Assembly: GCA_949752735.1 (NCBI GenBank)
Contig: OX457050.1
Span: forward strand, 44,149,284 to 44,213,283
DNA from: Lumbricus terrestris
Lineage: Eukaryota; Annelida; Clitellata; Crassiclitellata; Lumbricidae
Direction of reading: 5' to 3'
Length of the DNA stretch: 64,000 bases
In this document: in pieces, positions 1,856-63,631 of the stretch
Layout: the number at the start of each line of letters is the position of its first letter
Position numbering within the stretch: position 1 is the stretch's first letter
Notes under the pieces: model-generated
Seen by the model: the letters and a program-made list of their open reading frames with translations, nothing else
What the model was told of the DNA's origin: nothing
Database searches by the model: none
Made by a program: the position numbers and the translations under genes

Positions 1856-4800
1856 GTAATAATTTCTTAGGAACTCGAACACTCCTTCTTAGCAATAATC
1901 AGACTATTCTGACGGTTAATTCCCTTTCCTCCAATTTTATGATAAAGTTGTAGAAAATGTGACGCAGTTAAGTTTAATGGAGACATGTTTTTCTTGTTAT
2001 TCATCATTATCATCACTTCTATGGCGCAGTTGACCGTGGTGAAGAGCTCTCTTTGACGTAAGCTCTGCCTTTGACTCTGTGGAACACTTAATTCTCCTGC
2101 AGCGCCTCTCCACTTCTTTCGGCTTATTGTGGACCAGCCTCTTGATTGGCTTATGTCCTTCTTAACTGACCGCTTAAACTGTGTAGTTCTTGGGTCGTCC
2201 AGGTCTGCTTGGGTCCCTGCATGCCCCTCTTGGGGTGCCCCAGGGTTCCGTCTTGGGTCCGCTGCTGTATCTTCTCTATATTGCTGATATCTGCTTCTTA
2301 CTGGCATCTTAGGGGCTTCAGCACCAGCTATTTGCCGATGATGTGCAAGACTACATCCATACCTATTCGGCTGATGCGGTGGCCGCTGTTAGCAAGAAGT
2401 GTAGGAAAATGGATGTCACTCTGTTTGTCTGTCTCTCTCTCTCTATCTCTCTGTCTCTCTCTGTCTGTCTCTGTCTCTGTCTCTCTCTCTCTCGCTATCT
2501 CTCTCTCTCTCTCTCTCTCTCTCTCTCTCTCTCTCTCTCTCTCTTTCTCTCTCTGGATAGCCTCCAATCGGCTTCTATTAAATCCCTCCAAGACACAGTT
2601 TATTTGGTTGGGTGGCCGTAGGCAACTCCAGGGTATTGACCTTCCCCAAATTGCTCTGCTCTTTCCTCATATCTCCTTTTCCCTCACAGTTCGTGATCTG
2701 GGACTCACCTTCGATTCTGAACTCACTCTGTCCCAGCATGTGAACTTTGTTGCGCGGAGTGTCTATTACCAGCTTTTTCAGCTACGGGTGAGTATCTCTC
2801 ACGATGCTGTCGTCGTCCTTGTCCACGCCTTTGTTACGAGTCGAATCGACAACTGTTGCTCCTTACTTCCTGGTCTTCCCTTTGGGGTCATGGGGCGACT
2901 TGATCGCGTCTTGCGTTCGGTTTCTCGCCTTGTTTGGCGGCTTCCTAAGTTTGCTCCTGTCTCTGCCTATATGCTTGATGTGCTGCACTGGCTGCCTGTG
3001 TCCCAGCAGATCTCGTACCGCATTGCTGCCGTGGTCTCTCGTTGTGTCCTTGGCTGTGCTCCGTCATACTTGCGTGATCTTTGCTGTCCAGTCTCTGACG
3101 TAGCAGCGCGTCGTGTGCTACGCTCTTCGGCTATAGGGGAGAGCTTCTGGTCCCGCGGGCTCGCCTGGCTATTAAGCAGCGCCGTTCTTTCTCGGTCGTG
3201 GGGCCTACTGTCTGGAACAACATCCCGGTTACGCTTCGCTATCTAATTGTGGTCTATCCGGCTGGGTTCTACAAGTCTCTCAAGTCTTTTTTCCTGGTTG
3301 GGCTGGGAGCGCCTCTGAGTAGTTTCTACAGGGGCGCTATATGAATTGTCTGAATGAATGAATGAATCATCACCATCAACCGAGGGACCAGTGTCCGTAC
3401 TCCGTAGGTGCCCGATGCCTTTCTCGTTATTCCACGCCAGGTTTGTCTCTCCAAGGCAGCGTGTGTTAGGTCCTGTAGTTATTGCTCCACACCATTCTGT
3501 TATGTGGTCCAGCCATTCTTTGTGTGGTCGTCCTTTCCTGCTAGATCTCTCCATTCTTCCAAGTATAGGCCCAACTGGGTGGCCTGACAAAATGTCGCAC
3601 GACAAAATGTCGCCGACAAAATGTCGCCGACAAAATGTCGCAGAGACAATATGTCGCAAGACAAAATGTTGCCGGCAAAATGTCGCCGACAAAACGTCGC
3701 CGACATAATGTCGCCGACAAAATGTCGCGAATAATTCTACTCCCAAAGTGCGTTATGCGTGGAATAAATGGCTTCGATCTATCCGAAGTTTAAAGTAAGC
3801 TTATACCTGTGCGAGGAGGTAGAGAACCCATTCAATACTTGGGAGACATTGTCAGAATTCTGAATATCAATGTTGTATTAACAGGTTTAATGCTGTATAA
3901 GCATTACTCATCAGTGGCGTAGCCAGGAATTTTCATGGGGGGGGCGGGTTTGTTTTTTTGCCTGGCCGGATACCCTTTCTGAAACCAACCCAACAGTATT
4001 ACAGTAAATAAACAGGGAATAAGGCAACAAAAAGAATAAAGTAAGAAAAACAATTGTTACTGCAAGCAATTGTTTTGTTTTTTTCTTACTTAAGTGGATA
4101 AATAACCTTTAAAAAACTTTTTCCTAGGCCTATGGGGGTTAACCCCCGAAACCCCACCCCTCCCCTTGGCTACGCCACTGTTACTCATGGACATTAACAG
4201 AGACACTAACAGATTGAATAACATCATGTACCTGTAGGCCTATTTATAGTGTGTTTGCACACTATGTAGCTTTGTATATATATTTTTTGCCGTTCATTTC
4301 CGTATACGTTAACACATTTAATATTACCGTCAATGTAGCTGTCTTAGAAACTTCATGGAATGAGAGTTAGTTCGCACACTTTTTATTCTTTTATATTTTT
4401 TGCGGACTTTCTTCATGGACATTTTCTGTTATAATGTGTGTCCGTTGACACTACTATCAACAAGTTCACTCGATGGTTTTTTAAATGGTCAATTTGTGCA
4501 ATAAAAAGCTGTTTTACTCATTTACGATTGCGCCATTTTGTCGGCGACATTTTGTCTTGCGACATTTTGTCTCTGCGACATTTTGTCCGCGCTAACTGTC
4601 TTGATCTACATGTATCTGCTGTTATCCACCCTGAATATAATTATGCCCAAAGAGTTTTAACTTCCTGCTCATTATTTTCTGCATAAGGTTTTCTTCCCGC
4701 ACCAACACCAATGCAACCTTCAGTTATCTTATTGCTATTAGATTTTGTCCCCATGTTAATAGCAATAACACATGTTGTAATATTTCACCAGAATAACTCC

Positions 4801-62833: not shown

Positions 62834-63631
62834 GGGGCGCGGACATTTCCCCCCGCCCCCGGACAAAACCCAACCGGACAAACCCCCCCCCGGACAATTC
62901 CCCCTAGGGTAGGACAATTCCCCCCCTGGTAGAACATATTGCGTATAAGCGGTTGTACTGTAAAACGCCGGTGCTAAGTATGCAATTTCAATTGATGAAA
63001 AGAATTCTCGCTAAATAGAAGCCGGATTGGTACAAAATAAATTTTACTTAAATGGAAGCTGGATTGATGAAAATGTTCTTGTTTAAATTGTAGCTGGGTT
63101 GATGAAAATATTCTTGTTTAAATGGAAACTGCATTATTGAAAATGTTCTTGTTTAAATTGGAGCTGGATTGATGAAAATATTCTTGTTTAAATGGAAGCA
63201 GGATTGATGAAAATATTCTTGTTTAACTGGAAGCTGGATTGATGAAAATATTCTTGTTTAAATTGGAGCTGAATGGATAAATATAATCTTGCTTAAATTG
63301 GAGCTGGATGGATAAAAAATTGTTATTTATATAGAAGTTGGATGAAACGAATTTATACCTAAAGAAATAGGCTCAAGAACATTTTCATCAATCCAGCTTC
63401 CATTTAAGTAAAATTTATTTTGTACCAATCTGGCTTCTATTTAGCGAGAATTCTTTTAATCAATTAACTTGCGTACTTAGCACCGGCGTTTTACAGTACA
63501 ACCACTTAAACGCAATATGTTCTACCAGAGGGAATTGTCCTACCCTGGGGAGGGGATTGTCCGGGGGGTTTTGTCCGGGGGGTTTTGTCCGGGGGGAAGA
63601 ATTTTGTCCAGGAGGGAAATGTCCGCGCCCC
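62834..63631. mobile_element. foldback element, GGACATTTCC/GGACAAAACCCC ends, ~150-bp arms
   Basis: The left arm starts GGGGCGCGGACATTTCCCCC, with GGACAAAACCC and GGACAATTCCCC units. It is followed by a non-repetitive inner arm, GGTAGAACATATTGCGTATA and TGTACTGTAAAACGCCGGTG (to about 62980). The right arm (63470-63631) is its inverted match, ending AATGTCCGCGCCCC. The interior (62990-63420) holds the ~35-bp minisatellite (TTAAATTGGAGCTGGATTGA), inverting near 63385. No coding region. No clear target duplication. Confidence 0.9.

Follow-up and report, generated by a model that had tools for sequence, protein, structure and literature searches.

How can one and the same tandem repeat lie inside transposon-like elements whose ends differ from each other? 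The question is raised by a stretch of 64,000 nucleotides of the earthworm Lumbricus terrestris (assembly GCA_949752735.1, contig OX457050.1, positions 44,149,284–44,213,283; this whole stretch is here called the window), for which a sequence-only reading had proposed that at least nine loci share one plan, with inverted arrays at the ends and, in most of them, an interior repeat of about 35 bp. Our analysis indicates that these are probably non-autonomous cut-and-paste DNA transposons made of two kinds of module, ends and interiors, that can be recombined with each other.

An interior repeat shared by inverted-end elements

With up to 3 mismatches allowed, the window contains 76 matches to the 20-bp core of the interior repeat, ATCAATCCAGCTTCCATTTA, and 100 shuffles gave a mean of 0.00. 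A unit hidden Markov model (HMM) trained on those 76 matches retrieved 120 units at E≤1, versus 1 in the reversed window, and 91 of the 120 are held by eight delimited elements. Twelve inverted-end elements were delimited in all (E1, E2, E3, E5, E7a, E7b, E8, E9, E10, E12, E13 and E14) and the 35-bp repeat is present in eight of them, thus confirming the observation of inverted-end elements that share an interior; E1, E5 and E7 are without the repeat.

Duplications were read at fixed tip positions in E2 and E3 (9/9 each), E5 (7/8), E10, E12 and E14 (8/8 each), with at most 5 matches, at either duplication length, in 72 comparisons of mispaired flanks used as control. At these positions no clear duplication was seen for E1 (3/8), E9 (2/8) and E13 (5/9). 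In 12 out of 14 GACA-type tips a GG lies 8 bp further out than the first GACA, an offset picked post hoc, after the tips had been inspected. That the whole pattern arises by chance or from an assembly artefact is a negligible possibility, being contradicted by the shuffled, reversed and mispaired controls and by the E2-type copies found on many contigs at 95–100% identity.

Arrays and end families in the host genome

The search of the host genome with the interior, suggested by the sequence-only reading, retrieved the core at 33,493 places (≤2 mismatches; 1 for the reversed control) of the 1,056,305,194 bases and 331 contigs of the assembly, and the same plan was found outside the window as well. 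Core density in the window is ≈22 times the genome mean (45 matches at ≤2 mismatches in 64 kb versus 33,493 in 1,056 Mb), and contig C16 ends about 0.9 Mb from the window.

Sixty-eight arrays of at least 2 units with 500 bp of flank were sampled, non-randomly, from three sources: the initial ≈43 Mb of contig C1, a single stretch next to the window, and slices of the window itself; 15 overlapping or repeated loci were omitted. Half of them (34/68) lie inside elements with similar G-starting tips and exact duplications of 8 or 9 bp, whereas none of 1,190 mispaired flank comparisons gave an exact match; these 34 are what remained of 35 picked elements after a wrong pick, wE8, had been dropped, and the element finder also missed the known element E3.

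The abundance of the core, with its 33,493 matches, could suggest an independent dispersed minisatellite, repeatedly captured by nearby transposons, and capture of dispersed repeats has a precedent in the TU type of element. For the arrays without a delimited element, seven end motifs were looked for within 500 bp in 29 rows (30 genomic arrays, two of them, at L062, merged; three window arrays omitted). Nine rows had none of these motifs, as such a minisatellite would allow. In 14 rows the array was flanked by known end motifs on either side and in 6 on a single side; reversed motifs gave 0 and 2, respectively. Together with the 34 arrays in exactly delimited elements, with the uniform orientation of the array towards the ends in 18 out of 20 elements of end family F1 and with the edge units of E2, E9 and E13, which are alike by eye, these counts make repeated capture an improbable explanation.

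Eleven end families, several of which are represented by one element each, share one interior repeat family between 8/9-bp duplications. Array-carrying ends in which no nesting was seen comprise GACA-type and other motifs, namely (GGACATTTCCCC)n, GACTTTACCCCCGG, (GACAATTCGGCGACA)n, (GACAAAACGGCGC)n, (GACAACTGGTCTACC)n and GGTAATCCCGCAGTTTAGCGTCG, and further GGTAATGTTTACC, GGTACTATAATTTTAATTC, GGCACCCCGTCGTAATAGCCC, GGTAAATACGCACAC and GGTAAAAGTGTATTTTAGCG, plus a class flanked by CCGG. Two other candidates, F8 and F10, were rejected as array-carrying families since both contain nested inner elements. By tip and duplication there are at least three interior-bearing end classes: GGTAA... ends, GG-N6-GACA arrays, and TGTAAAGG beside CCGG. 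A single superfamily similar to the foldback (FB) and TU elements, as originally stated, is therefore rejected, because tips and duplications differ by class; what holds of that proposal is the existence of modular, foldback-like, non-autonomous elements with different ends and one interior family. Likewise, end motifs had been described as completely different between subfamilies, which does not apply to all of them: the GACA-bearing motifs look related.

Merlin enzymes and the GGTAA ends

GGTAA... ends are mostly accompanied by 8-bp duplications. A search for PF12762 (DDE_Tnp_IS1595, the Merlin domain), in which the best 150 of 191 candidates were scored, gave at least 143 matches, many in long open frames, and 6 of 10 fetched Merlin loci could be delimited. 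The autonomous elements L072 (1,231 bp), L073 and L078 lie between exact 8-bp duplications (TTGAGTAA, CGAATCCC and AAAGGAAT, respectively), while L071, L079 and L080 have 1.2 kb in common at 99.7–99.8%, with 8-bp duplications recognised by eye at L079 (AATATTAA) and L080 (CCAGCTCA) and none seen at L071. The Merlin domain was confirmed in the proteins of L071, L072, L073 and L078.

Compared with the tip of L072, those of F6, E12 and L026 are identical at 22, 18 and 16 out of 24 positions, respectively (p≤0.0004 each; 20,000 shuffles, four autonomous tips), and the E14 tip matches that of L071 at 13/24 (p about 0.013–0.017). A GG start is borne by the tips of both the GGTAA families and the autonomous Merlin elements, and the duplications measure 8 bp in E12, E14 and L026 and 9 bp in the F6 element of L009. 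Given this similarity of their tips to those of autonomous Merlin elements in the genome, three GGTAA-ended families (F6, F7 and F13/E12) are best read as non-autonomous Merlin elements, and F12/E14 is possibly Merlin too. An autonomous copy with matching tips, for which a Mutator-like element (MULE), hAT or other transposase had been suggested, is available for the GGTAA class, in the form of Merlin.

The GACA clan

In the GACA clan (GG-N6-GACA arrays, with 9- or 8-bp duplications) each inverted end starts with a short tip, which is followed by tandem units of ≈14 bp. Among the 27 elements with exact duplications these are 9 bp long in 18 and 8 bp in 9, in a tally that includes E3, omits E5 (7/8) and contains two elements, L014 and E10, also readable as 9. 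Of the E2-type places, 40 were scored out of 347 candidates and none lies within 5 kb of the MULE or Merlin matches listed. This clan would be mobilised by a further enzyme making 8/9-bp duplications, of Mutator or Merlin type.

The CCGG class

The third class is represented in the window by E8 and E7. E8 (46363–47411, no strand assigned) has TGTAAAGG tips with CCGG on both sides and inverted arrays, of 8 plus and 9 minus units, of a 33/35-bp repeat; no exact 8/9-bp duplication was seen. E7a (41837–42284, no strand assigned) and E7b (42289–42739) are inverted copies of ≈450 bp each, with TGTAAAGG ends, joined tip to tip at a single shared CCGG and flanked by CCGG on the left and CAGA on the right. 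Their interior is another module, M2, distinct from the 35-bp repeat. At 41936–42010 it contains TTTTCATC and ATCCC[GA]CTTC at a spacing of about 40 bp and resembles a distant 35-bp unit; five comparisons of the E7 interior with the 35-bp repeat gave z from 0.4 to 3.9, not significant or borderline.

In the genome, the 17-bp tip with CCGG was found at 4,578 places (9 for the reversed control), and among 100 places listed on C1 there are 30 inverted tip pairs 413–446 bp apart. A second complete element of E8 type is L081 (30 units at E≤1, CCGG at either side), and a third, partial one is L084, with 7 units at E≤1 and CCGG on the left, so that the 35-bp family stands behind CCGG/TGTAAAGG ends at three places (E8, L081 and L084). 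L082, of E7 type, lies between two CCGG, has an insert of ≈900 bp and contains no array, and L083 shows again the tip-to-tip arrangement with a shared CCGG; as L081–L084 were picked by a pattern containing CCGG, for this flank the window copies alone are independent. Both E7 (flanks 41817–41836 and 42744–42760) and L081 interrupt a repeated host sequence, and at the identical point. That E7 arose from a single element by fold-back replication is less probable than two insertions with a CCGG in common, because of the second pair (L083) and of the 30 inverted tip pairs among 100 places. As a correction, the GGTTTCAAATTACCCCC family is CCGG-flanked and of another type.

Ginger1 transposons are characterised by CCGG duplications and TGTNR tips (PMC2836005, from the part of the description available), and E7 and E8 are similar to them in having TGTAAAGG tips, which fit TGTNR, and CCGG flanks.

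Proposed exchange of interiors between classes and descent within them

Relatedness of the interiors extends beyond the core. The linkers of E8 resemble those of E12 and of the array at 40 kb (z 6.5 and 9.3) and, to a lower degree, those of E2 and E10 (z 3.3 and 2.8), with 0 of 200 linker shuffles as high in each comparison. By unit distance E8 is nearest to F5, F6 and F8 (0.23–0.25), the F8 units in this comparison being those of a nested F6 element, and further from F1, F3 and F4 (0.33). A second module is also shared: the E7 interior occurs inside GGCACTCC-ended elements at 92.7% over 109 bp (score 101, versus a shuffled maximum of 19.5), and E7 termini are absent from these elements.

Within the GACA clan, on the contrary, ends and interior tend to co-vary, mainly by vertical descent. 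Of 20 F1 elements, 18 keep the array in a constant direction with respect to their two unlike tips. For 38 elements the closest neighbour by interior was determined, and in 22 cases it had the same end family; shuffles averaged 13.9, and 11 of 2,000 reached 22 or more. In this test the label rule assigned the L022 element (F2) to F1, and L029 and L051 were kept in. Because of this co-variation, the swapped ends supposed by the sequence-only reading are to be sought mainly between classes.

Such co-variation, with the F1 polarity fixed in 18/20, is also what one would expect if a single ancestral element had diverged at its ends by coevolution with the transposase, with no module exchange and all classes derived from Merlin. 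This explanation agrees with the GG tips and 8/9-bp duplications of the GACA and GGTAA classes, the GG being partly built into the sampling, and fits the published definition of Merlin, i.e., GG tips with 8- or 9-bp duplications (PMC8101967, as given in the accessible portion of the text). It is nonetheless unlikely, since the TGTAAAGG ends beside CCGG (E8, L081 and L084) differ in tip and yet have the interior, E8 is without an exact 8/9-bp duplication, and the E7 interior is found without its ends in the GGCACTCC elements.

Nesting was observed repeatedly: E14 in E15, F6 in F8, F1 in F10 and F1 in an E7-type copy (L013). A composite with GGCACTCC ends, E7 interior and an inner F6 element stands at two loci, L009 and L029 (787 bp, 95.9%), with duplications that differ by locus (CAAAGCTG/CAAAGCGG versus AACGTTTT), and would represent a concrete route to new combinations of ends and interior. 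Nested insertion could even be the entire explanation, each new end family being an outer element around an intact inner array element, and nesting is directly seen in L029, L051, L013 and E15. As the sole process it is distinctly unlikely, for no inner ends were seen by eye between the CCGG-class termini and the arrays of E8 and L081, and in E2, E3, E10 and E12 the arrays lie directly behind the elements' own ends.

A model of recombining modules

The reading that we favour, elements built of recombinable ends and interiors, would work as follows. A terminal recognition module would consist of a GG- or TGT-starting tip followed, in most clans, by an inverted array of 12–15-bp repeats, which may offer multiple transposase-binding sites by analogy to Galileo; the interior module would most often be the 35-bp array. 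Merlin transposase would mobilise the GGTAA-ended families and a predicted Ginger1-type integrase the CCGG families. Interiors would cross between end classes by nested insertion, composite transposition and loss of the inner ends or, alternatively, by template switching in gap repair, and within a class ends and interior would descend together. The conserved core (ATCCAGCTTCCATTT), kept while the linkers change, may be a selected binding site. We further propose, tentatively, that interior modules are passengers across transposase superfamilies, the 35-bp family travelling on Merlin-, GACA- and Ginger1-type ends and the E7 interior on CCGG- and GGCACTCC-type ends.

Several points weigh against this model. 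The element finder favours or requires G-starting tips, so that the GG of its sample carries no independent weight; F7, F9, F11, F12 and F13 are one element each, and arrays are short (2–3 units) in L026, L031 and L067. The linkers of E8 are no closer to those of E9 than shuffled ones (z 1.6, 12/200). For the CCGG class, the right flank of E7b is CAGA, and the CCGG may belong to the inverted repeat instead of being a duplication. Four intact Merlin-domain frames (L074–L077) are without convincing inverted ends, and are perhaps domesticated or within larger elements. Six tips of the GACA clan, the commonest class in the sample, did not match the four autonomous Merlin tips (9–11/24, p 0.07–0.22), MULE genes are present too (at least 143 matches among the best 150 of 211 candidates scored), and the enzyme of this clan was not found. 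Finally, module transfer is what we infer from the combinations observed, and no locus was caught with loss of the inner ends in progress.

The elements of the window

Among GACA-clan elements, E1 (3578–4595, no strand assigned) has GACAAAATGTCGCC arrays at 3586–3728 and, inverted, at 4529–4587, with GGTGGCCT as left tip and a degraded right one. It is without the 35-bp repeat and hosts a miniature inverted-repeat transposable element (MITE; 3912–4180, no strand assigned; tip CAGTGGCGTAGCCA, 8-bp duplication TTACTCAT), which we take to be of hAT type from its tips. E2 (14314–15229, plus strand) has ends GGTGCGCT/GGCGCCGT followed by (GACAAAACGGCGC)n, the 9-bp duplication GCTACACGG and 13 interior units, and E3 (37056–37752, plus strand), of the same subfamily, the 9-bp duplication AATTTATTT and 8 units. 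E5 (20304–22347, no strand assigned) shows ends GGTTATCG/GGTGTCCG with (GGACAATTTGGAGC)n and the duplication TGTAAAGC/TGTAAAAC (7/8); no 35-bp array is present, and its two scanned interior open reading frames (ORFs) gave no Pfam match. Close to E5, a solo array of GCGCGCAAATGACG at 20072–20175, with two inverted copies at 19698 and 19739, is possibly another end family.

E9 (44340–45258, plus strand), of the F1 family, is bounded by (GGACATTTCCCC)n, with right tip GGATGTAG and a degraded left tip, and holds 17 interior units. It is followed by E10 (45311–46224, minus strand), with ends GGTTCCAT/GGTGACAA and (GACAATTCGGCGACA)n, 14 units and the 8-bp duplication GGACATAC, also readable as 9–11 bp. 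E13 (62834–63631, minus strand) has tips GGGGCGCG with (GGACATTTCCCC)n and 11 units, extra units flanking it on both sides (62538–62702 and 63645–63671). E15 (60096–61751, no strand assigned) is likely a degraded outer element of GGACA type, with uncertain limits, although the mutual match of its ends is weak. E14 lies within its array and E12 near its right end, and the flanks of E14, when joined, continue an array edge like that of E13, E14 thus interrupting an older array.

With other tips, E12 (61114–61704, plus strand) carries the Merlin-like GGTAAAAGTGTATTTTAGCG, the 8-bp duplication GGACGCTG and 7 units, which include a 68-bp higher-order repeat related to E8, and E14 (60450–61057, minus strand) has tips GGTAAATACGCACAC, the 8-bp duplication GAACTTGG and 4 divergent units. 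A one-sided end array (39965–40419, no strand assigned) is formed by GGACAAAATGGTAC at 39965–40010 beside 8 interior units (40016–40419), and no inverted partner of GGACAAAATGGTAC was found within 30 kb at ≤2 mismatches. A small element at 41034–41408 (minus strand) has inverted tips of ≈19 bp, TTCTATAATGACTCGGTAG, around 5 divergent units, with no recognised duplication; a divergent interior copy at 32308–32639 (minus strand), 91% identical to 41065–41378, has no recognised ends.

The window had been described as free of transposase. A DDE_Tnp_1_7 transposase fragment, presumably of piggyBac type, is present at 28124–28597 (minus strand); the description is therefore not fully exact, although the fragment is unrelated to the elements considered here. 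A long open frame of long interspersed nuclear element (LINE) type at 56747–59449 (plus strand) encodes 900 aa with endonuclease and reverse transcriptase, the best six relatives listed being 58–63% identical, and two long C2H2 zinc-finger-like frames with HTGEKPY linkers, named by eye, lie at 33734–35227 and 53019–55631. No Pfam match was obtained for ten further window ORFs, a subset being scanned, and no Rfam match for the window at gathering cut-offs.

Comparison with known systems and significance

The closest plans are those of TU, Tm1, Tetris, Galileo and Merlin with internal tandem repeats. In the sea urchin, TU elements are foldbacks of modular build: the outer domain carries tandem repeats of ≈15 bp, and the middle segments derive from other repeat families. 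They join the same ends to different middles, mainly the converse of what is seen here. The comparisons that follow are limited to the portions of the cited papers available to us.

Tm1, a Mutator/Foldback element of Meloidogyne, has a short unique tip, 1–9 tandem units mostly of 14 bp and 9-bp duplications (PMC3169594). The GACA clan shares this plan of tip and tandem units, its duplications being of 9 bp in some elements and of 8 bp in others; Tm1 combines one end family with different interiors, whereas here many end families surround one interior. Tetris of Drosophila virilis is a modular foldback with tandem repeats, 8–10-bp duplications and no autonomous partner found (PMC4079207), similar to our elements in plan, tandem repeats and duplication lengths. 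Unlike these, its ≈220-bp tandem repeats sit in the inverted ends and feed a satellite, and sharing across end classes is not described in that portion. Galileo, of the P superfamily, has long, internally repetitive ends with several transposase-binding sites; it differs in its P-type enzyme, and a shared interior is not mentioned in the text available (PMC3688188). Merlin elements resemble ours in GG tips, 8/9-bp duplications and internal tandem repeats, which are reported for them (PMC8101967), and have matching autonomous copies in this genome; inverted end arrays and an interior common to other superfamilies are unlike that description, and the GACA-clan tips are without a match. For Ginger1, the words "tandem" and "MITE" are absent from the main text of PMC2836005. 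The present elements depart from these plans in how many end families surround a single interior, and in that this interior stands behind differing tips and flanks. A literature search, covering listings and the beginnings of abstracts, met no report of one interior common to Merlin- and Ginger-type ends, and the exact motifs led to papers unrelated by title.

For annotation, a classification of these elements based on their interiors would lump distinct end classes together. Here a single genome allows ends and interiors to be followed independently, and autonomous partners are available for some of the ends, which makes testable how non-autonomous elements switch mobilising enzyme, a step that, in our judgement, is usually assumed rather than seen. 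The finding also suggests how a minisatellite can reach more than 33,000 core copies, namely by being carried along with several transposition systems. If interiors are indeed passengers, ends and interiors would have separate phylogenies, and any invading transposase could be recruited to spread the same interior.

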